Assembly (NCBI RefSeq): GCF_000372745.1
Contig: NZ_KB889664.1
Coordinates: 319,665-383,664, forward strand
Reading direction: 5' to 3'
From: Embleya scabrispora DSM 41855
Lineage (GTDB): Bacteria; Actinomycetota; Actinomycetes; Streptomycetales; Streptomycetaceae
DNA: 64,000 bases
Notes under the pieces: generated by a model
Databases searched by the model: none
Told to the model about the DNA's origin: nothing
Seen by the model: the letters and a program-made list of their open reading frames with translations, nothing else
Shown here: piece by piece, positions 29,482 through 49,395 of the stretch
Numbering within the stretch: the stretch's first letter is position 1
Layout: every line of letters begins with the position of its first letter
Translations under genes and position numbers: made by a program

Positions 29482-31410
29482 TTACAGACCGCGAGCCAGG
29501 TGGTCGGTGAGCAGCCGGGTGAAGCGGGCCGGGTCGGGCAGGTCGCCGCCTTCGGCGAGCAGCGCGCCGCCGTAGACCAACTCGACGATCTCGGCCAGCG
29601 CGGGGGCGTCGGCATTCGCCTCGTGCGCCGAACGCAGCGCGGTGATCAGCGGGTGCGTCGGGTTGAGCTCCAGGATCCGCTTGACCGAGGGCATCTCCTG
29701 CCCCATCGCCCGGTACATCTTCTCCAGCGTCGGGGTCATGTCGTGCGCGTCGCCCACGATGCACGCCGCCGACGTGGTCAGCCGCGACGACAGCCGAACC
29801 TGCTTCACCTGCTCGGACAGGGTCGTCGTCAACCACGGCAGCAGGGCGGCGAAGTCCTGCTCACGCTTGGCCTTCTCCGCTCCGGCCTCCTCGTCGCCGT
29901 CGTCGGTCGGCTCGTCCAGGTCGACCTGGCCCTTGGCGATCGACTGCAGACGGTGGCCGTCGAAGGCCGGGACCTGGTCGACCCAGACCTCGTCGACCGG
30001 GTCGGTCAGGATCAAAACCTCGTATCCCTTGGCGGTGAAGGCCTCCATGTGCGGCGAGTTCTCCACCATCGCGCGGGTCTCGCCGGTCAGGTAGTAGATC
30101 GCGTCCTGGCCGTCCTTCATGCGCTCGACGTACTCGCGCAGGGTGGTGGGCTTTTCCGGGTCGTGCGTGGAGGCGGCCGACACCAGCTCCAGCAGGGCCT
30201 CGATGTTGTCGGTGTCCTCGAGCAGGCCCTCCTTCAACGCTCGACCGAACTGGGCCCACAACCTCGCGTAGCGCTCGCCGTCCTTGGCCTGCATGTCCTT
30301 GATCGCGCCGAGGACCTTCTTGACCAAGCGCCGGCGTACGCCGCGGATCTGGCGATCCTGCTGCAGGATCTCGCGGGAGATGTTCAGCGACAGGTCGTGG
30401 GCATCCACGACACCCTTGACGAAGCGCAGGTAGTTCGGCATCAGCGCTTCGCAGTCGTCCATGATGAACACGCGCTTGACGTACAGCTGCACGCCGCTCT
30501 TGGACTCGCGGGAGAACAGGTCGAACGGTGCCTGCGACGGAATGAACAGCAGCGCCTCGTACTCGAAGTTACCCTCGGCGCGCATGTGGATCGTTTCGGC
30601 CGGGTCGAGCCCGTCGTGGCTGATCTGCTTGTAGAACTCGCTGTACTCGGCCTCGGTCACCTCACTGCGCGGCCGGGCCCACAACGCCTTCATCGAGTTG
30701 AGCGTGTCGACCCCGTGCGTGGTGACGCCGTCCGCGTCGGTGCGCACCGTGGCCATCCGGATCGGCCAGCGGATGAAGTCCGAGTACTGCTTCACGATCT
30801 GGCGGATCTTCCACTCGGCCAGATAGTCGGCCAGCCCGTCCTCGCTGTCGGCGGCCTTGAGGTGCAGGGTGACCGAGGTGCCGACGGGCAGACCGTCGAC
30901 GGCCTGGATGTCGTAGGTTCCCTCGCCGTCGGACTCCCACAGGGTGCCGGAGTCGGTGCCCGCCCGCCGGGTGCGCAGGGTGACCTTGTCGGCGACCATG
31001 AACGCGGAGTAGAAGCCGACGCCGAACTGCCCGATCAGGTTCTGCGCCGCGGCGGTGTCCTTGGCTTCCTTGGCTTCCTTGATCTTCTCCAGCAGACCGG
31101 CGGTGCCGGACTTGGCGATGGTGCCGATCAGCTCCACGAGGTCGTCCCGGCTCATGCCGATACCCGTGTCGCGGACGGTCAGCGTGCGGGCGTCCTTGTC
31201 GATGTCCAAGGCGATGTGCAGGTCGGAGGTGTCGACCTCGAGGTCGGAGTCGATCAGGGACTCCAGCCGCAGCTTGTCCAGTGCGTCGGAGGCGTTGGAG
31301 ATCAGCTCGCGCAGGAAGATGTCCTTGTTCGAGTAGATCGAGTGGATCACCAACTGGAGCAACTGACGGGTCTCGGCCTGGAATTCCAGCGTTTCGACGC
31401 TGCTACCCAC
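29482..31410 (-). CDS. htpG: Molecular chaperone HtpG (Hsp90)
   Basis: A full-length bacterial Hsp90 of 642 residues. The N-terminal GHKL ATPase domain has RELISNASDALDKLR (N box), VRDTGIGMSRDDLVE (G1 box) and GQFGVGFYSAFMVAD (G2 box). The middle domain includes RVFIMDDCEALMPNYLRFVK, with the catalytic-loop segment NISREILQQDRQIRGVRRR. The GTG at 31410 follows AGGGG and begins the conserved N-terminal part. It stands alone between a terminator and a long spacer. Confidence 0.95.
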   Translation of the reverse strand: MGSSVETLEFQAETRQLLQLVIHSIYSNKDIFLRELISNASDALDKLRLESLIDSDLEVDTSDLHIALDIDKDARTLTVRDTGIGMSRDDLVELIGTIAKSGTAGLLEKIKEAKEAKDTAAAQNLIGQFGVGFYSAFMVADKVTLRTRRAGTDSGTLWESDGEGTYDIQAVDGLPVGTSVTLHLKAADSEDGLADYLAEWKIRQIVKQYSDFIRWPIRMATVRTDADGVTTHGVDTLNSMKALWARPRSEVTEAEYSEFYKQISHDGLDPAETIHMRAEGNFEYEALLFIPSQAPFDLFSRESKSGVQLYVKRVFIMDDCEALMPNYLRFVKGVVDAHDLSLNISREILQQDRQIRGVRRRLVKKVLGAIKDMQAKDGERYARLWAQFGRALKEGLLEDTDNIEALLELVSAASTHDPEKPTTLREYVERMKDGQDAIYYLTGETRAMVENSPHMEAFTAKGYEVLILTDPVDEVWVDQVPAFDGHRLQSIAKGQVDLDEPTDDGDEEAGAEKAKREQDFAALLPWLTTTLSEQVKQVRLSSRLTTSAACIVGDAHDMTPTLEKMYRAMGQEMPSVKRILELNPTHPLITALRSAHEANADAPALAEIVELVYGGALLAEGGDLPDPARFTRLLTDHLARGL

Positions 31411-31895: not shown

Positions 31896-32204
31896 TCAGC
31901 GCCGGATGTGGGCGCGGCCCTGCTTGCCCGTGCCGTGTCGTTCGACGGTCCAGCCTGTGGTGAGCATGTCGAGCAGAAGCAATCCGTAGCCGCCGTCCGC
32001 GTTCGCGGGACGTTGGAGAACCAGGAGATCGCGGGCGTGGTCACCCACCCCGATCTCGACTCCGTCGGGGGAGGGGGCCAGGGTCAACTCGGCCTCGCCG
32101 CACGTATGTCGAAGAACGTTGCCCACCAGTTCCGAGACGACCTGGACGTCGTCGTCCGCGCGGTCCCGGGGCCGGCCCCGGGTGTCGAGCGTGTCGCGAA
32201 CCAC
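31896..32204 (-). CDS. ATP-binding protein of the anti-sigma (HATPase_c_2) type, N-terminally short
   Basis: The 102 residues from the GTG at 32204 contain the N box VVSELVGNVLRH and the later GYGLLLLDMLTTGW motif of small Streptomyces serine-kinase-like anti-sigma regulators. Homology appears to continue upstream in frame (WTLSNAPGIPGRVRAVVRDT, to about 32250), and the frame stays open to 32378, but it has no ATG, GTG or TTG there. Either the protein starts at 32204 and lacks its first strand, or the 5' end has been lost or rearranged. Confidence 0.5.
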   Translation of the reverse strand: MVRDTLDTRGRPRDRADDDVQVVSELVGNVLRHTCGEAELTLAPSPDGVEIGVGDHARDLLVLQRPANADGGYGLLLLDMLTTGWTVERHGTGKQGRAHIRR

Positions 32205-34445: not shown

Positions 34446-35552
34446 TCACCGCGGCGGATATCCGCCCGCGCCCCGATCCATTCCGGCCCGCGTCCGCCAA
34501 GAGCGGTCGTGTCTTCCGGGGTGAGCTCGGGTCGAGGTCGTGTCGAGCGCAACGCGCATGGCGCTGCGTCCAGCGCGCCACGCGGTCAGGAGGTGGTCGC
34601 CGAGGCGGCCCTCCAGGAACACGGTGGCGGCGATGCCGAAGACGACGTCGGCTTCCAGGTTCGGTTCGTCGGCGAGCAGGCCGGCGACCACTTCGCGGCG
34701 CACGACCTGCTCGTGGACGGCGTCGGCCTCCACGTGCTCGTCGTAGAAGCGCTCGGCGGCGGGTCCGGCGCCGGTCCGGCGTATCGCCTGGGCCAGTCGG
34801 CGTGAACCGGGGGAGGAGGTCACCTCCACACAGGCGAAGTGGCCCACCAGCGCGCCGCGCAGCCCGCGGTGCAACCCGAGCAGGGACATCAGGTTCACGG
34901 TCGGCAGCACCGTGGCGGGCGCCGCGTCCAGGTAATGGCCGTACGACGGGTCCACATCGAGGTCGACCATGAGGTCCGCGAACAGTCGGGCGTGGATGTC
35001 CTCGGCGCGGCCGGCACCGAATTCGTCGAACTCGACGGCCACCATCGCCGCTTTCGCCCGACCGCGCAGGCGGGGGATGACCCAGGCGTGCGGATCGGCC
35101 TCCTTGAGGTGATACAGCGAGCGCATCGCGGCGTATTCGCGCAACTGCCACAGCTCTCCCCGGGTCCGGAGGAAGTGGCTGACGCTGTTGCCGTCGTCCC
35201 CGGTCGGCTCGACCAAGAGCGCGGCCAGCGCGTCGTCCACGCTCCGGCCGTCGTGGGCGTGCGCACGCAGGGCGGTGAGGAAGCGTTCCTCGAGGGCGGC
35301 GCGCAGGCCCAGGAGGTTCGGGTCCCACTCGCGGTCGTCGGCCACCCGGGCGAAGCCCCGGTAGTGCAACTCGTACAGCGTGTACAGGGCCAGATGCAGA
35401 TCCTCGCCGAAGGGATCGGCCCGGGCGACCCGGTGGGCCCCCGGGAGTTCGCCTCCGCCGGTCCGCAACGCCGTGATCACGCCCGCGGAGAGTTCGCCGC
35501 GCGGTCGCGGCAAGGCCGGGGCGGCCTGGGAGGCGTGTGTCGACACGGTCAC
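34446..35552 (-). CDS. Iron-containing redox enzyme family protein (heme-oxygenase-like diiron fold)
   Basis: A protein of 368 residues, long for the family. Metal-binding candidates follow the heme-oxygenase-like diiron pattern: Glu139 in LREYAAMRSLYH, Glu174/Glu177 and His187 in EFDEFGAGRAEDIHARLF, and Glu272, His273, Asp277 and His280 in FYDEHVEADAVHE. Known relatives (SznF, UndA, BesC) oxidise amines or fatty acids with O2. The GTG at 35552 overlaps the CDGSH gene stop by four bases, and GGAAG lies upstream. It is the last gene of a three-gene overlapping operon; its substrate is unknown. Confidence 0.75.
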   Translation of the reverse strand: MTVSTHASQAAPALPRPRGELSAGVITALRTGGGELPGAHRVARADPFGEDLHLALYTLYELHYRGFARVADDREWDPNLLGLRAALEERFLTALRAHAHDGRSVDDALAALLVEPTGDDGNSVSHFLRTRGELWQLREYAAMRSLYHLKEADPHAWVIPRLRGRAKAAMVAVEFDEFGAGRAEDIHARLFADLMVDLDVDPSYGHYLDAAPATVLPTVNLMSLLGLHRGLRGALVGHFACVEVTSSPGSRRLAQAIRRTGAGPAAERFYDEHVEADAVHEQVVRREVVAGLLADEPNLEADVVFGIAATVFLEGRLGDHLLTAWRAGRSAMRVALDTTSTRAHPGRHDRSWRTRAGMDRGAGGYPPR

Positions 35553-35812
35553 GGGTGGCTTCCTTCGTCGGTCGTCGCCGCCTCCGGCTCGCCCGGTGAC
35601 GGTTCGGCGCCCGCCGATGCGGTGCGCGCGCGGTGGCTGGTGTCGCACCACGGGTAGGTGCGGCTGCGCCGACATGTGCAGACGGCGACGACGAAGCGTT
35701 TCGATATGACGACCTCGCCGTTCGGCAGGGCCACCTCCACGGGGCCTTCGATCAGGAGGGGGCCGTCGCGCTCGGCGGTGATCCGGCGGGGACGATCAGC
35801 GTTTCTCGGCAC
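35549..35812 (-). CDS. CDGSH iron-sulphur domain protein
   Basis: A protein of 87 residues. The 2Fe-2S motif is CTCRRSRTYPWCDTSH, that is, three cysteines and one histidine, with Thr in place of Gly in CDGSH. The part before it (DGPLLIEGPVEVALPNGEVV) is usual in bacterial one-domain CDGSH proteins. These act in electron or cluster transfer. The GTG at 35812 overlaps the methyltransferase end by 17 bases and its stop overlaps the diiron enzyme start by four, so all three are translationally coupled. It could donate electrons to the diiron enzyme (inference). Confidence 0.85.
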   Translation of the reverse strand: MPRNADRPRRITAERDGPLLIEGPVEVALPNGEVVISKRFVVAVCTCRRSRTYPWCDTSHRARTASAGAEPSPGEPEAATTDEGSHP

Positions 35813-36479
35813 GGACGACCACCAATTCCTCGCGATTGTCGTGGGTGCCCACCAGGCCGGCGCGGCGCAGCCAGTCCAGCCGCTCGCGCAGGACCGGACC
35901 GAACGGAATGGTCGTGCGATCGGCGATCGTGGCGCGCATGCCGGATCGCTCCAGCGCGCCAAGGGTGGCCTCGGCGTCGCACAGTCCGGAGTGCACCATC
36001 AGCAGGACGCCGTCGGGCCGCAGCACGTCGGGGACCGCCGCGCAGATCCGGTCCACCACCGCCCGGCCGCCGAGTCCGGCGTCCCACGCGCGGGCGGCGC
36101 CGAAATGCGGGACCCCGGGCCGGGGCGCGGGCACGTACGGCGGATTGCACACGACGAGGTCGAAGGAGTGACCGGTCACGGCCGACAGCAGGTCGCCGCG
36201 ACGCACGGTGATCCACCGGCGGGCGAGCAGTGCGTTCGCGCGGGTGGTCAGCACGGCGCGTCTGGTGCTGTCGACGGCGGTCACTCGTGCTCCGAGTCGA
36301 GCCGCGTACACGGCCAGGGCTCCACTGCCGGTGCACATGTCCAGGACCCGGGTGCCTTCGCGGATGCCCTCCCGGCGTATCGCCTCGGCCAGCAGAAAAC
36401 TGTCGGACTGGGGGACGTACACGCCCGGGGCGGTGAGTATCCGGCCCAGGGGGGAAACCGTGACACCGATTGCTGACAT
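35796..36479 (-). CDS. Class I methyltransferase of the HemK2/MTQ2 type
   Basis: An SAM-dependent methyltransferase of 227 residues. Motif I is VLDMCTGSGALAVYAARLGA and the catalytic motif is NPPYVP, shared with N5-glutamine and related amide methyltransferases. The N-terminus GVYVPQSDSFLLAEAIRREG is typical of the HemK2 group. Its target may be a protein or a small molecule. The ATG at 36479 has GGAGG nine bases upstream. It is the first gene of the operon with the CDGSH and diiron proteins. Confidence 0.85.
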   Translation of the reverse strand: MSAIGVTVSPLGRILTAPGVYVPQSDSFLLAEAIRREGIREGTRVLDMCTGSGALAVYAARLGARVTAVDSTRRAVLTTRANALLARRWITVRRGDLLSAVTGHSFDLVVCNPPYVPAPRPGVPHFGAARAWDAGLGGRAVVDRICAAVPDVLRPDGVLLMVHSGLCDAEATLGALERSGMRATIADRTTIPFGPVLRERLDWLRRAGLVGTHDNREELVVVRAEKR

Positions 36480-36954: not shown

Positions 36955-37386
36955 TCAGGCGGTGATCACCTTGCGGTCGGACCTGGTGCCGATGGAGATC
37001 TTGCGGGGCTTGGCCCGCTCCGCGATCGGGATCCGCAGCGTCAGCACACCGGCTTCGTAGGCGGCGTCGATGCGCTCGGTGTCGAGGGTGTCGGCCAGCA
37101 CGATCTGGCGGGAGAAGACGCCCACGGGACGCTCGGACAGCTCCATCTGAACCTCGTCCGCCTTGGCCGCGGGCTCGCGCCGGGCCTTGACGGTGAGCAT
37201 GTTGCGCTCGACATCGATGTCGATCGCCTCGGGGGTCACACCCGGCAGGTCGAATGCGACCACGTACACCTCGCCATCGCGGTAGGCGTCCATCGGCATC
37301 GCCGTCGGCCGCGAGGCGGTGCCGGGAGCGAGGAGCTGCTGCGCGAGCCGGTCGAGCTCGCGGAAGGGGTCGGTACGCATCAACAT
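36955..37386 (-). CDS. Hsp20/alpha-crystallin small heat-shock protein (HSP18 type)
   Basis: A protein of 143 residues with an alpha-crystallin domain: [29 protein letters not shown], and the end motif [19 protein letters not shown]. It is an ATP-independent holdase for unfolding proteins. The ATG at 37386 has GGAGG nine bases upstream. Two RheA-type operators and a divergent HSP18 regulator gene lie just upstream, the arrangement known for Streptomyces hsp18. Confidence 0.92.
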
Positions 37387-37452
37387 CGCGAAAACACCTC
37401 CGAAAGATTCAATCGGTAGCGCCCGGTCGGGCTGCCTGGAACTGTTGTAGCA

Positions 37453-38298: not shown

Positions 38299-38976
38299 CT
38301 ATTCGGCGTCCACGCGAACCCTCGGTACGGCTTCGCCGTCGATGTCGCCCGTCGCACCGGCCGCGGCCCGGGCCAGGGTGTCCTCGGTGAGCTCCGGGTC
38401 GGCGAGCAGGGCGGGCAGGAGCAGGTGCCACAGATCGGTCAGGTCGTCCTCGATGTCGGCGCGTCCGGAGAGCGCGTCGGAGACGGTGTGCATGCCGAAG
38501 AAGGCGTGGATGATCGAGCGTGCGGCCGCCGCCGGATCGACGCGCTTCGCCAACTCGCCCTTCTCCCGCGCCCGATCCAACAGCGCGCGGGCGGTGGCGA
38601 TCCAGCCCACGAAGGGAGTCGGCAGTATCGCGTCGATGGCATAGCGCTCGCCCCACAGCCGCGCTCCGCCACGAACCACCGGATCGTCGCGATAGGCCCG
38701 GGCCACCGCGAAGCTCAACCGCACCAGGCCCTCCAACGCGGGTGCGTCCGCCGGGCTTTGCCGTTCGATCAGCTCCGGCCAGGTGGCGAAGTGCGCCTCG
38801 ACGACCGCACGGGCCAGGGCATCCTTGTTGGAGAAGTGGAAATAGATGGCACCGCTGGTGAGTCCCGACGCGTTGCCGATGTCACTGATGCTCGTCCCGG
38901 CGAAGCCCCGCTCGTGGAACAGGCGTGCCGCCGTCTCCAGAAGGGATTGGCGAGTCGTTCCTGCCCGTGCCTGCAC
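38299..38976 (-). CDS. Gamma-butyrolactone receptor-type TetR regulator (ScbR/ArpA family)
   Basis: A regulator of 225 residues. The N-terminus TRQSLLETAARLFHERGFAG and SGAIYFHFSNKDALARAVVE is typical of butyrolactone receptors, and the core continues VVRGGARLWGERYAIDA, then ARALLDRAREKGEL, as in ScbR. These proteins repress antibiotic and signalling genes until they bind the lactone. The GTG at 38976 has GGAGG eight bases upstream. It is divergent from an AfsA/ScbA-type synthase gene, the classic quorum-sensing pairing. Confidence 0.82.
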   Translation of the reverse strand: MQARAGTTRQSLLETAARLFHERGFAGTSISDIGNASGLTSGAIYFHFSNKDALARAVVEAHFATWPELIERQSPADAPALEGLVRLSFAVARAYRDDPVVRGGARLWGERYAIDAILPTPFVGWIATARALLDRAREKGELAKRVDPAAAARSIIHAFFGMHTVSDALSGRADIEDDLTDLWHLLLPALLADPELTEDTLARAAAGATGDIDGEAVPRVRVDAE

Positions 38977-39006
38977 GTGCCACCTCCAGCTCGGATGTCT
39001 GCGTGG

Positions 39007-39015
39007 AAACTGGTT
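39007..39015. promoter_or_regulatory. Weak candidate core of an autoregulatory (ARE-like) element
   Basis: AAACTGGTT lies 31 bases before the receptor start, in the receptor/synthase intergenic region. Receptor binding sites of this family often contain such AAAC/GTTT cores, but the surrounding 26-base element is not convincing. It is recorded only as a place to look. Confidence 0.2.
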
Positions 39016-39158
39016 GCTGTCGCGGCTCGTGTCCGCGGGTGCCCGACGCCACGCGACAGCACGTCGATCGCCGGCTTTTCCAGGCGCGTTCGGTGCCGCG
39101 CGACGCACGGCGAGAAGACGACGTGCACCTTCCCGACCTCTGGGTTCTGCTTGTGTTC

Positions 39159-40082
39159 ATGACTACCTTTGGCGGCGGCGCGGCGTTCTCGGGTCTCTCG
39201 GTGAGACCGCTGAGCTGGTCGCGCACCGTGGCACGAGAGTCGGTACACCGGACCTCGGTGGCCGAGGTGTTGCTGACCGATGTGGTGCGCCTCGCGGAGG
39301 CGTCCTTTTTGACGGCGGCCCAATGGCCTCGCTCGCATCCCACGTTCCCGCCGGCCGGTGACGGCGGACACAGTCGGCTGATGATCGTGGAAACCCTTCG
39401 CCAACTGGGGATCTTCATCCCGTCGCAGTTCTTCTCGGTGCCCCTGGAAGCGCACTTTCTGATCAAGGACCTTTTCTACGGTGTCGACATCGCCATGGAG
39501 CCGCGTTTGCAGAGCGGCGCCACCGATATCACCTGTTTGGCGGAAGTCGACGACCTGCGCCCCACGCACGACGGCCACGGGCTGAGGGGATTGCGACTGC
39601 GCATTCGCCTCTCGGCCGGCGTCACGACCTTCGCCCGCGCGGGAGGCAACGCGCGATTCCTGGACGCGCGCACGTACGCGGCTCTGCGCGGCGCGCCACT
39701 GGGGCCGCAAGCGCCTCGACCGCGCCGCAGACCGACGCCGGAGGCGGTGGACGCGGTCCTGCCCCGCGACGTGCTGCTCGCGCACAGCGACAGCGGGACC
39801 CTGGAACTGGATCCGGCCGATCACCTGCATCCGTTCTTCTTCGACCACACCGGCGACCACGTGCCCGGAATGGTGCTCGTCGAGGCCGCCCGGCAGGCGA
39901 TCGCGGTCTTGAGCGACGGCGAGTTGTTGCGGCCGACCGCGTTTCGACTGCGCACCCCGCACTTCACCGAGTTCGATCCGCCGGCACGAGTCGAGTGCTT
40001 CCTGCACAGCGGCCGGCAGGCATCGTTTCGTTTCCGGCAGGGAGCGAGCCACACGGCGGCGGGGGCACTGCGCTACCGCTGA
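39159..40082 (+). CDS. ScbA/AfsA-family gamma-butyrolactone biosynthesis protein
   Basis: A protein of 307 residues with the two AfsA repeats. The first runs around RESVHRTSVAEVLLTDVVRL and AQWPRSHPTF; the second around PRDVLLAHSDSGTLELDPAD and HPFFFDHTGDHVPGMVLVEA. AfsA proteins condense a beta-ketoacyl chain with dihydroxyacetone phosphate in signal synthesis. The ATG at 39159 lacks a clear ribosome binding site; GTG codons at 39096 or 39132 could be the true start. It is divergent from the receptor gene. Confidence 0.85.
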   Translation: MTTFGGGAAFSGLSVRPLSWSRTVARESVHRTSVAEVLLTDVVRLAEASFLTAAQWPRSHPTFPPAGDGGHSRLMIVETLRQLGIFIPSQFFSVPLEAHFLIKDLFYGVDIAMEPRLQSGATDITCLAEVDDLRPTHDGHGLRGLRLRIRLSAGVTTFARAGGNARFLDARTYAALRGAPLGPQAPRPRRRPTPEAVDAVLPRDVLLAHSDSGTLELDPADHLHPFFFDHTGDHVPGMVLVEAARQAIAVLSDGELLRPTAFRLRTPHFTEFDPPARVECFLHSGRQASFRFRQGASHTAAGALRYR

Positions 40083-47333: not shown

Positions 47334-47900
47334 TCAGTGTCCGCCGCGGCCGGAGAGCAGGTCGCGGGCCCGGTCGACCAGTCCGGCGCCCGGGGCGAGG
47401 ATCCTGTTGGCGGGTGGCGTGTCGGGTGCGGAGGGGTGCGGGCGGGTCGGCGCCGTCTCCTTCGCGGCGCGGACCTTGTCGCCCAACGCGTTCAGCTCTT
47501 CGGTCGTGCAGGCGGCGGCCAGGAGGGGGAACATGCGGCCCTCCTCGTCACGGACGTGTTCGCCCACGGCGAGCCGAAGGCGCGCGACCAGGTCGTCGAA
47601 GCGCGGATCGTCCGCGTCGCGGCCTTCGAGGTCCTTGAGGAGTTCCTCCACTGCGGCGTGATCGGCGATCTCCTTGTCGGCGATCGTGTCGCCGTCCTCG
47701 ATGTGCTCGCGCACCGCCGGGTACAGGTGCATCTCCTCCGCGACGGAGTGACGGACCAACTCCATGGTCAACTCGTCGGCCGCGACGCGCCGCCGCGCGT
47801 CTCCGACCGGCAGGATTTCGATCCGCGCGAACAGCGCGTCGACCTCGCGATGGTCGACGGTGAGTTCCTCGATGACGTTGCCGCCGTGTCCCAGTCCCAT
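47334..47900 (-). CDS. Hemerythrin HHE-domain protein
   Basis: A protein of 188 residues. The HHE residues for a non-haem diiron site occur in IEELTVDHREVDALF, VRHSVAEEMHLYPAV, IADHAAVEELLKDL and LRLAVGEHVRDEEGRMFPLL. The C-terminal ~50 residues are a proline-rich tail. Bacterial hemerythrins bind O2 or act in oxidative and nitrosative stress. The ATG at 47900 is preferred over the frame opening at 47975. Confidence 0.88.
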   Translation of the reverse strand: MGLGHGGNVIEELTVDHREVDALFARIEILPVGDARRRVAADELTMELVRHSVAEEMHLYPAVREHIEDGDTIADKEIADHAAVEELLKDLEGRDADDPRFDDLVARLRLAVGEHVRDEEGRMFPLLAAACTTEELNALGDKVRAAKETAPTRPHPSAPDTPPANRILAPGAGLVDRARDLLSGRGGH

Positions 47901-47952
47901 GTAACCCGCCTCTTCTCGGTACGGCGAGCACCTGGACCCGCGCCCATCTCCG

Positions 47953-47977
47953 CTACCCGGCGAATCGGGCCGCACAC
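47953..47977 (-). promoter_or_regulatory. Sigma-B-like promoter upstream of hemerythrin
   Basis: On the minus strand GTGT (47974-47977), 15 bases, then GGGTAG (47953-47958) resembles GNNT-N14-16-GGGTAY, with G in the last position. It lies 53 bases before the hemerythrin start. It is the third such element within 4 kb. Confidence 0.4.
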
Positions 47978-48039: not shown

Positions 48040-49221
48040 TCACGGGCGCAGCAGGACCTTGACGGTGCCGTCCTGCTTCTTCTGGAACCGTTCGTACGCC
48101 TGCGGCGCCTCGGCGAGCGGGATGCGATGGGTGGCGAAGTCCTCGGTGCCCAGCGGGTCGTCGTCCTCCAGGAGCGGCAGGATGTCGTCCACCCACCGAT
48201 GTACGTTCGCCTGACCCATGCGCAGTTGGATCTGCTTGTCGAACATGGTCAACATCGGGAGCGGGTCGGCCATCCCGCCGTACACCCCGGAGAGTGAGAC
48301 GGTGCCGCCGCGGCGGACCAGGTCGATCGCGGTGTACAGGGCACTGAGTCGATCGACGCCGGCCTTGCGCATCATCTTCTCGGCGACCACGTCGGGCAGC
48401 AGGCTCGCGATCTGCTGGGCCAGTTTGCCCACCGGCGCGCCGTGCGCCTCCATGCCGACCGCGTCGATCACCGCGTCCGGCCCGCGGCCGTCGGTGAGCG
48501 CGCGGATCGTGTCGGCGATGTCGTGATGAGCGGTGAGGTCGAACACCTCGACACCGCGCTGCCGAGCCCGGGCGAGCCGCTCGGGCACCAGGTCGACGCC
48601 GAACACGCGCTCGGCACCCCGGTGCAGCGCGATGCGACACGCCATGTCGCCGATGGGGCCCAGCCCGAGCACGGCGACGGTGCCGCCGGGCGGGACGGCG
48701 GCGTACTCGACCGCCTGCCATGCGGTCGGCAGCACGTCCGAGAGGTAGACGTAGCGATCGTCCGGGGGCCCCTCGGCCACCTTGATCGGGAGCTTGTTGC
48801 CGAACGGCACCCGCAGGTATTCGGCCTGTCCGCCCGGGACCTGACCGTAGAGCTTGGTGTAACCGAAGAGCGCGCCGCCCATGCCCTGTTCGCGCACCCG
48901 GGAGGTCTCGCACTGCGAGTGCAGTCCCCGCGTACAGGTGTGACACACCCCGCACGAGACGTTGAACGGGATCACCACGCGATCACCCGGCCGTACGTGG
49001 GTGACCTCGGCGCCGACCTCCTCGACGATGCCCATCGGCTCGTGACCCAGGATGTCGCCCTCGCTCAGGAACGGGCCGAGGACCTCGTACAGGTGCAGAT
49101 CCGAGCCGCAGATCCCGGACGAGGTGACCTTGATGATCACATCGTCCGGGTCCTTCAGCGCCGGGTCCGGCACGTTGTCCACGCGTACGTCGCGCCTGCC
49201 GTGCCAGGTGAGTGCCTTCAT
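48040..49221 (-). CDS. Zinc-dependent alcohol dehydrogenase (FdhA-like)
   Basis: An enzyme of 393 residues in the medium-chain dehydrogenase family. Catalytic zinc ligands are in ICGSDLHLYEV (Cys) and ILGHEPMGIVEEVG (His, Glu), and the structural-zinc cysteines in CGVCHTCTRGLHSQC. The NAD motif is VAVLGLGPIGDMACRIALHR. The long insert and overall length resemble glutathione-independent formaldehyde dehydrogenase-like enzymes. The substrate is uncertain. The ATG at 49221 has GAGGAG upstream. It is within the stress island. Confidence 0.88.
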   Translation of the reverse strand: MKALTWHGRRDVRVDNVPDPALKDPDDVIIKVTSSGICGSDLHLYEVLGPFLSEGDILGHEPMGIVEEVGAEVTHVRPGDRVVIPFNVSCGVCHTCTRGLHSQCETSRVREQGMGGALFGYTKLYGQVPGGQAEYLRVPFGNKLPIKVAEGPPDDRYVYLSDVLPTAWQAVEYAAVPPGGTVAVLGLGPIGDMACRIALHRGAERVFGVDLVPERLARARQRGVEVFDLTAHHDIADTIRALTDGRGPDAVIDAVGMEAHGAPVGKLAQQIASLLPDVVAEKMMRKAGVDRLSALYTAIDLVRRGGTVSLSGVYGGMADPLPMLTMFDKQIQLRMGQANVHRWVDDILPLLEDDDPLGTEDFATHRIPLAEAPQAYERFQKKQDGTVKVLLRP

Positions 49222-49395
49222 CACGATCATCTCCTCGGACGGGTGTTCGGTGGGTCGGCGACCCTCGGGGGATCCGCCGTACACGGGAGGCGGCGACCGG
49301 CGGCCGGGAACATCCCGTACCGAACCGGCTGACCGGTCGGCGCCCGATCAAACACCGGGGCGAGGGGCGCACTGGGCCGAGTGGGGGATCGGCCC

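Follow-up and report, generated by a model that had tools for sequence, protein, structure and literature searches.

Three overlapping genes on the minus strand of the window (the whole stretch of 64,000 nucleotides from Embleya scabrispora that was analyzed) make up a real, conserved, and apparently undescribed three-gene unit around a diiron protein of the SznF type. The first gene (35796..36479; ATG at 36479, stop at 35796) encodes a HemK2/MTQ2-like SAM methyltransferase of 227 aa (MT), and a GGAGG ribosome-binding site lies directly 5′ of its start. The second (35549..35812; GTG at 35812, stop at 35549) encodes a CDGSH [2Fe-2S] protein of 87 aa, and the third (34446..35552; GTG at 35552, stop at 34446) encodes a heme-oxygenase-like diiron protein of 368 aa (HDO; an iron-containing redox enzyme), with GAAGGAAG 5′ of its start codon. 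HDO is single-copy in the 11.4 Mb host genome. A sequence-only reading of this DNA had reported that MT and CDGSH overlap by 17 bases and CDGSH and HDO by 4 bases, and both overlaps were confirmed at these minus-strand positions. It had also put the trio forward as a candidate for an undescribed pathway. When the literature was searched by family names, no paper describing the MT/CDGSH/HDO trio was found, which bears out the proposal in part, but the setting is not that of a classical biosynthetic gene cluster.

Conservation and Gene Order

HDO was found with strong scores in 45 of 61 genomes of Streptomycetaceae and in 50 of 296 genomes of the phylum Actinomycetota, and about three quarters of the sampled Streptomycetaceae genomes carry the trio. 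A comparison of 80 named Streptomycetaceae loci, nearly all from Streptomyces, found CDGSH and MT each within 3 kb of HDO in 76, and the two together in 73. The conservation of the trio and the fact that its members mostly co-occur support the earlier suggestion of a joint task. Two gene orders predominate, namely MT-CDGSH-HDO (order I, that of the window; 34 loci) and HDO-MT-CDGSH (order II; 40 loci). The 17-base MT/CDGSH overlap is possible in 28 of the 34 order I loci and the 4-base CDGSH/HDO overlap in 26 of them, the window included in both counts. These junctions support a translationally coupled operon, as expected from the earlier claim that the three proteins are made together. Hardly two order I loci have a neighboring gene in common, yet the trio is intact, which suggests that it moves or persists as a unit.

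In the wider phylum, CDGSH was found near HDO in 22 of 40 loci and MT in 9 of 40, in convergent, divergent, or reversed orders. HDO accompanied by CDGSH and lacking MT is common outside Streptomyces, and at some HDO loci both partners are missing from the vicinity. Since MT is absent near HDO in many of the non-Streptomyces loci, it is not essential to HDO. Within the family, an MT homologue was detected in 43 of 45 HDO-positive genomes as opposed to 1 of 16 HDO-negative genomes (Fisher 3e-11, uncorrected for ancestry and thus indicative only). The exception to this co-occurrence (genome G048) holds a degenerate copy whose MT is truncated, and MT is also truncated in a decayed copy in genome G007. 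At one further site (contig G289:C33, loci L125 and L174), two divergent HDO genes lie about 1.1 kb apart, with no CDGSH or MT nearby.

The Diiron Protein

In the Pfam/NCBIfam search, HDO matched PF14518 (Haem_oxygenas_2) with E = 2e-55, and this was the sole domain found. Because the C-terminal cupin domain of SznF is absent, HDO was not filed as an SznF orthologue. The ligands of SznF, which we take to be E189, E215, H225, E281, H311, D315, and H318, agree with the alignment, in which all seven pair one to one with residues of HDO. Specifically, E151 in core helix 1 (codon 35100..35102, minus strand, as for all ligands) equals SznF E189, E177 (35022..35024) equals E215, H187 (34992..34994) equals H225, and the H273-x3-D277-x2-H280 ligands of core helix 3 (34713..34736) equal H311, D315, and H318. 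These six residues make up the 3-His/3-carboxylate set that HDO superfamily members carry on three core helices. The extra carboxylate of the 3H/4C set is E243 (34824..34826), which the profile alignment places at the position of SznF E281, a Glu on an auxiliary helix. Ligand conservation was followed in an alignment of 39 sequences and then in one of 121, and each of the seven residues is invariant in the latter (121/121). The sequence-only reading had pointed to ligands near 139, 174-187, and 272-280. Residues 177, 187, 273, 277, and 280 stand, but the reading overlooked E243 and gave residue 139 in place of E151. E139 was ruled out as a ligand, being conserved in 117 of the 121 sequences, and SznF E189 aligns with the invariant E151.

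An AlphaFold2 model of HDO (pLDDT 89) was closest in fold to HrmI (Z 31.7 over 302 residues, 2.5 Å), followed by SznF (Z 26.0) and RohS (Z 25.5), in each case over nearly the whole chain. Lesser matches were obtained to FlcD (Z 23.5, whole length), CADD (Z 21.4 over 208 residues), BesC (Z 17.8), and UndA (Z 17.8). In the profile search, RohS (9.5e-16), HrmI (1.2e-15), and SznF (4e-15) were followed by BesC (0.0055) and FlcD (0.012), and UndA was not listed. From the SznF alignment and the HrmI fold match, we infer that the HDO ligands cluster spatially. The predicted fold, the full ligand set, and the nearest relatives support the original assignment of HDO to the heme-oxygenase-like diiron enzymes of the SznF kind, and the protein is very probably a diiron O2-activating enzyme. 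The likeness to UndA, BesC, and SznF drawn in the same reading holds for SznF, which is near, but HDO is far less closely related to BesC and UndA than to the N-oxygenases.

The three nearest relatives differ from HDO in several respects. SznF, the streptozotocin N-oxygenase (6VZY, 6M9R), shares the PF14518-type fold, but it is only about 17–18% identical and is encoded in a dedicated biosynthetic cluster, which the trio is not. RohS, the azomycin N-oxygenase (9PFX, 9PFW), is the top profile match and has a Z of about 25, but its identity to HDO is about 17% and its gene context is different. HrmI, the L-lysine N-oxygenase of hormaomycin (9N1X, 9NH9), has the same N-terminal region as HDO but is about 21% identical, and it is a lysine-specific pathway enzyme with a 3H/3C ligand set (PMC13108848).

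Because RohS, HrmI, and SznF are all N-oxygenases, N-oxygenation is proposed for HDO, and it is somewhat more likely than not that the enzyme oxygenates nitrogen. The 3H/4C set has been described for SznF, but it occurs in about 25% of HDOs and is therefore not exclusive to N-oxygenases; moreover, the chemistry of the superfamily is not fixed by the primary ligands (PMC13108848), so N-oxygenation by HDO is put forward here by analogy. This latitude would also allow HDO to cleave C-C bonds, desaturate, or rearrange its substrate in a small tailoring pathway, as enzymes of the BesC, UndA, or FlcD type do. These belong to the same superfamily, and FlcD matches HDO over its whole length; nevertheless, the HDO profile favors the N-oxygenases over BesC and FlcD by about 12 orders of magnitude and the ligand set is that of SznF, and such a chemistry is considered improbable.

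The CDGSH Protein

The product of the second gene matched PF09360 (zf-CDGSH; E = 1e-15 in the Pfam/NCBIfam search). Its cluster motif is C-T-C-x8-C-D-T-S-H, in which Thr replaces the Gly of the classical motif. CDTSH is the form found in Streptomycetaceae, as opposed to CDGSH or CDGTH in most others, and the C, C, C, and H ligands are kept in at least 95% of both groups (99 sequences). The C-x-C-x8-C-x3-H cluster motif is common to this protein and mitoNEET/CISD, from which it differs in the CDTSH of Streptomycetaceae and in that a membrane anchor is not expected. MitoNEET, a member of the CDGSH family, undergoes FMNH2-dependent redox cycling, with FMNH2 provided by a flavin reductase, and CDGSH proteins are able to pass electrons to O2 (PMC9490426). 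An FMN reductase gene lies 34–104 bases from HDO in several loci and is divergent in several of order II. By analogy with this cycling, and given the strict gene linkage, the CDGSH protein is a plausible, if tentative, candidate for the electron donor to HDO.

Most characterized HDOs originate from rare natural-product clusters. The HDO described here never departs from the complete set of diiron ligands, and in Streptomyces its gene is nearly always linked to that of a small redox protein. The words reductant and ferredoxin are absent from a 2026 review of HDOs (PMC13108848), which fits with their electron donors being unsettled. If the proposed role is true, the CDGSH protein would be the physiological electron donor that has long been missing for an HDO. 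The trio is widespread and genetically accessible, and it would offer a system for finding both an HDO electron donor and a stress-related N-oxygenated product.

The Methyltransferase

MT scored 99.1 bits against TIGR00537 (HemK2/MTQ2), for which the cut-off is 87. It carries the invariant NPPY motif and a HemK2-like AWxxGxxGR motif and lacks the N-terminal domain of PrmC, all as in HemK2/MTQ2 (N6AMT1). Its best solved relative is N6AMT1/HemK2 (E = 3.5e-15), and it resembles protein methyltransferases such as HemK2 more than small-molecule ones. MT differs from HemK2/MTQ2 in being a bacterial, operon-bound paralogue in a host with its own PrmC. HemK2/MTQ2 enzymes methylate the GGQ glutamine of a release factor and have Trm112 as their partner. 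This separate PrmC, distinct from MT, is encoded elsewhere in the host genome, which also encodes Trm112-like proteins, and for these reasons a role for MT as a release-factor (GGQ glutamine) methylase is unlikely.

The same relationships raise the alternative that the trio modifies proteins. The HemK2-like MT would then methylate protein Gln or Lys under stress, HDO would oxidize a side chain of that protein or another one, or itself, the latter as in CADD, and the CDGSH protein would serve as a redox or repair partner. The best solved relatives of MT, with which it shares both motifs, are indeed protein Gln/Lys methyltransferases, Trm112-like proteins are present in the genome, and no recurrent small-molecule synthase was found near the trio in the neighborhoods surveyed. 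However, the genome already has PrmC, the closest sequence relatives of HDO use free amino acids or 2-aminoimidazole as substrates, and the fold of CADD matches less closely and over a shorter stretch, and protein modification is therefore thought unlikely.

The host genome also contains another HemK2-like MT copy (L168 3214-3851, contig G000:C58), which is split over two frames and has no accompanying HDO; it is probably a decayed second trio. In Streptomyces coffeae (L047 9081-9962), MT and CDGSH are in one open frame, which is due either to a genuine gene fusion or to a frameshift introduced by sequencing. PADLOC returned methyltransferase-domain matches to MT alone and none to HDO or CDGSH, and an anti-phage role of the trio has no support from its models.

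Promoters and Stress Setting

A GGGTAY box is found shortly 5′ of HDO in 37 order II operons. The longer pattern GNNT-N14-16-GGGTAY precedes HDO in 21 of 44 order II operons against a background of 1% in pieces drawn at random from those loci, and a SigF-like pattern (GTTT-N14-17-GGGWA) lies 5′ of HDO in several Mycobacteriales and other actinobacterial loci. Order I operons, the window included, have no clear sigma-B-type promoter, and a shared promoter motif was sought 5′ of them and none was found. On the Streptomyces plasmid NZ_CP071045, sigma-B-type sigma genes are located on both sides of the trio, and in NZ_CP108290 genes for CsbD, SpoIIE/STAS, and universal-stress proteins are near it.

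Published expression data are available for what are probably orthologues of the trio, MSMEG_1771-1773 and SCO0759-0761, which were mapped by gene order and synteny. MSMEG_1771 (a methylase), 1772, and 1773 are SigF-dependent and lowered in a sigF mutant (PMC4694148). SCO0759/0760 are lowered in a bldA mutant, and the protease inhibitor gene SCO0762 is adjacent (PMC2000904). An inhibitor-like neighbor, identified by eye, lies beside 22 of 39 order II operons, which makes it probable that the SCO and MSMEG genes are orthologues. The published MSMEG_1771 promoter had no match in the Mycobacterium genomes searched. We infer that the setting of the trio in several lineages is general stress or development, with its regulation partly shown, and the trio may explain what several "hypothetical" genes under stress or developmental control do.

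Hemerythrin, CsbD, and sigma-B-type genes mark a general-stress setting that would also suit an NAD(P)H-driven scavenger likened to rubrerythrin or hemerythrin systems, in which HDO and the CDGSH protein would reduce O2 or H2O2 in stress and MT would be separate. The electron transfer to O2 reported for CDGSH proteins (PMC9490426) and the frequency of HDO and CDGSH without MT outside Streptomyces are consistent with this scheme. It is nonetheless judged quite unlikely, as HDO is similar over its full length, N-terminal region included, to substrate-oxygenating HDOs, and MT is strictly linked in Streptomycetaceae.

A Proposed N-Oxygenation/N-Methylation Module

The reading preferred here, which is held with less than firm confidence, is that the trio may be an N-oxygenation/N-methylation module that has its own [2Fe-2S] electron carrier and serves in stationary phase or under stress. 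HDO, with two irons held by its 3-His/4-carboxylate set, would turn O2 into a peroxo-diferric species and then oxygenate a substrate nitrogen (amine, guanidine, or amide). As the dedicated carrier, the CDGSH [2Fe-2S] protein would re-reduce the diferric site to diferrous, and the FMN reductase encoded alongside would possibly feed it in some lineages. The NPPY methyltransferase would methylate the same molecule at a planar nitrogen, either before or after oxygenation, a step that is proposed by likeness to streptozotocin biosynthesis. In that pathway, methylation precedes N-oxygenation and the substrate of SznF is N-methylarginine, an N-methylated amino acid, which is counted as a point of likeness. 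In several lineages, sigma-B/F-type factors would direct expression of the module when cells enter stationary phase, develop, or face general stress. A bolder version, in which the CDGSH protein is the physiological HDO donor and the product an N-oxygenated, N-methylated general-stress metabolite across Actinomycetota rather than a classical antibiotic, is doubtful when taken as a whole.

Neighboring Genes

Recurrent neighbors within 5 kb were counted at 125 loci. A zinc alcohol dehydrogenase was found in 14 loci, an FMN reductase in 12, a GT2-like protein in 11 (outside Streptomyces), and a YbdK carboxylate-amine ligase in 9; these neighbors are recurrent but lineage-specific. Outside Streptomyces, the GT2-like gene overlaps or directly adjoins HDO at L120, L122, L126, L127, L129, L130, L132, L134, L135, and L148, often with CDGSH and without MT. 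The GT2-like glycosyltransferase beside HDO is possibly a replacement tailoring enzyme. On a Kitasatospora plasmid (NZ_CP108290.1; L162 5887-9945), genes for a YbdK carboxylate-amine ligase and a dimethylargininase are lined up with the trio. As dimethylargininase adjoins HDO in only this 1 of 125 loci, it was not counted as pathway evidence, and an arginine/methylarginine pathway was discounted.

In the window, the next gene upstream of the trio encodes Hsp20 (36955-37400; Pfam). At 38299-40082, two genes away from it, the gene for a ScbR-family autoregulator receptor (NF041196, 209.6 bits) is divergent to an AfsA-type-like butyrolactone synthase gene (identified by eye), the two forming a putative signaling pair. 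Besides Hsp20, other stress-type genes surround the trio. Identified by eye were an htpG-like gene 3 kb downstream of the trio (29482-31410), an RsbW-like ATPase (31896-32204), and a hemerythrin-like protein (47334-47975). A zinc dehydrogenase (48040-49284) is homologous to the one recurring beside the trio in other genomes.
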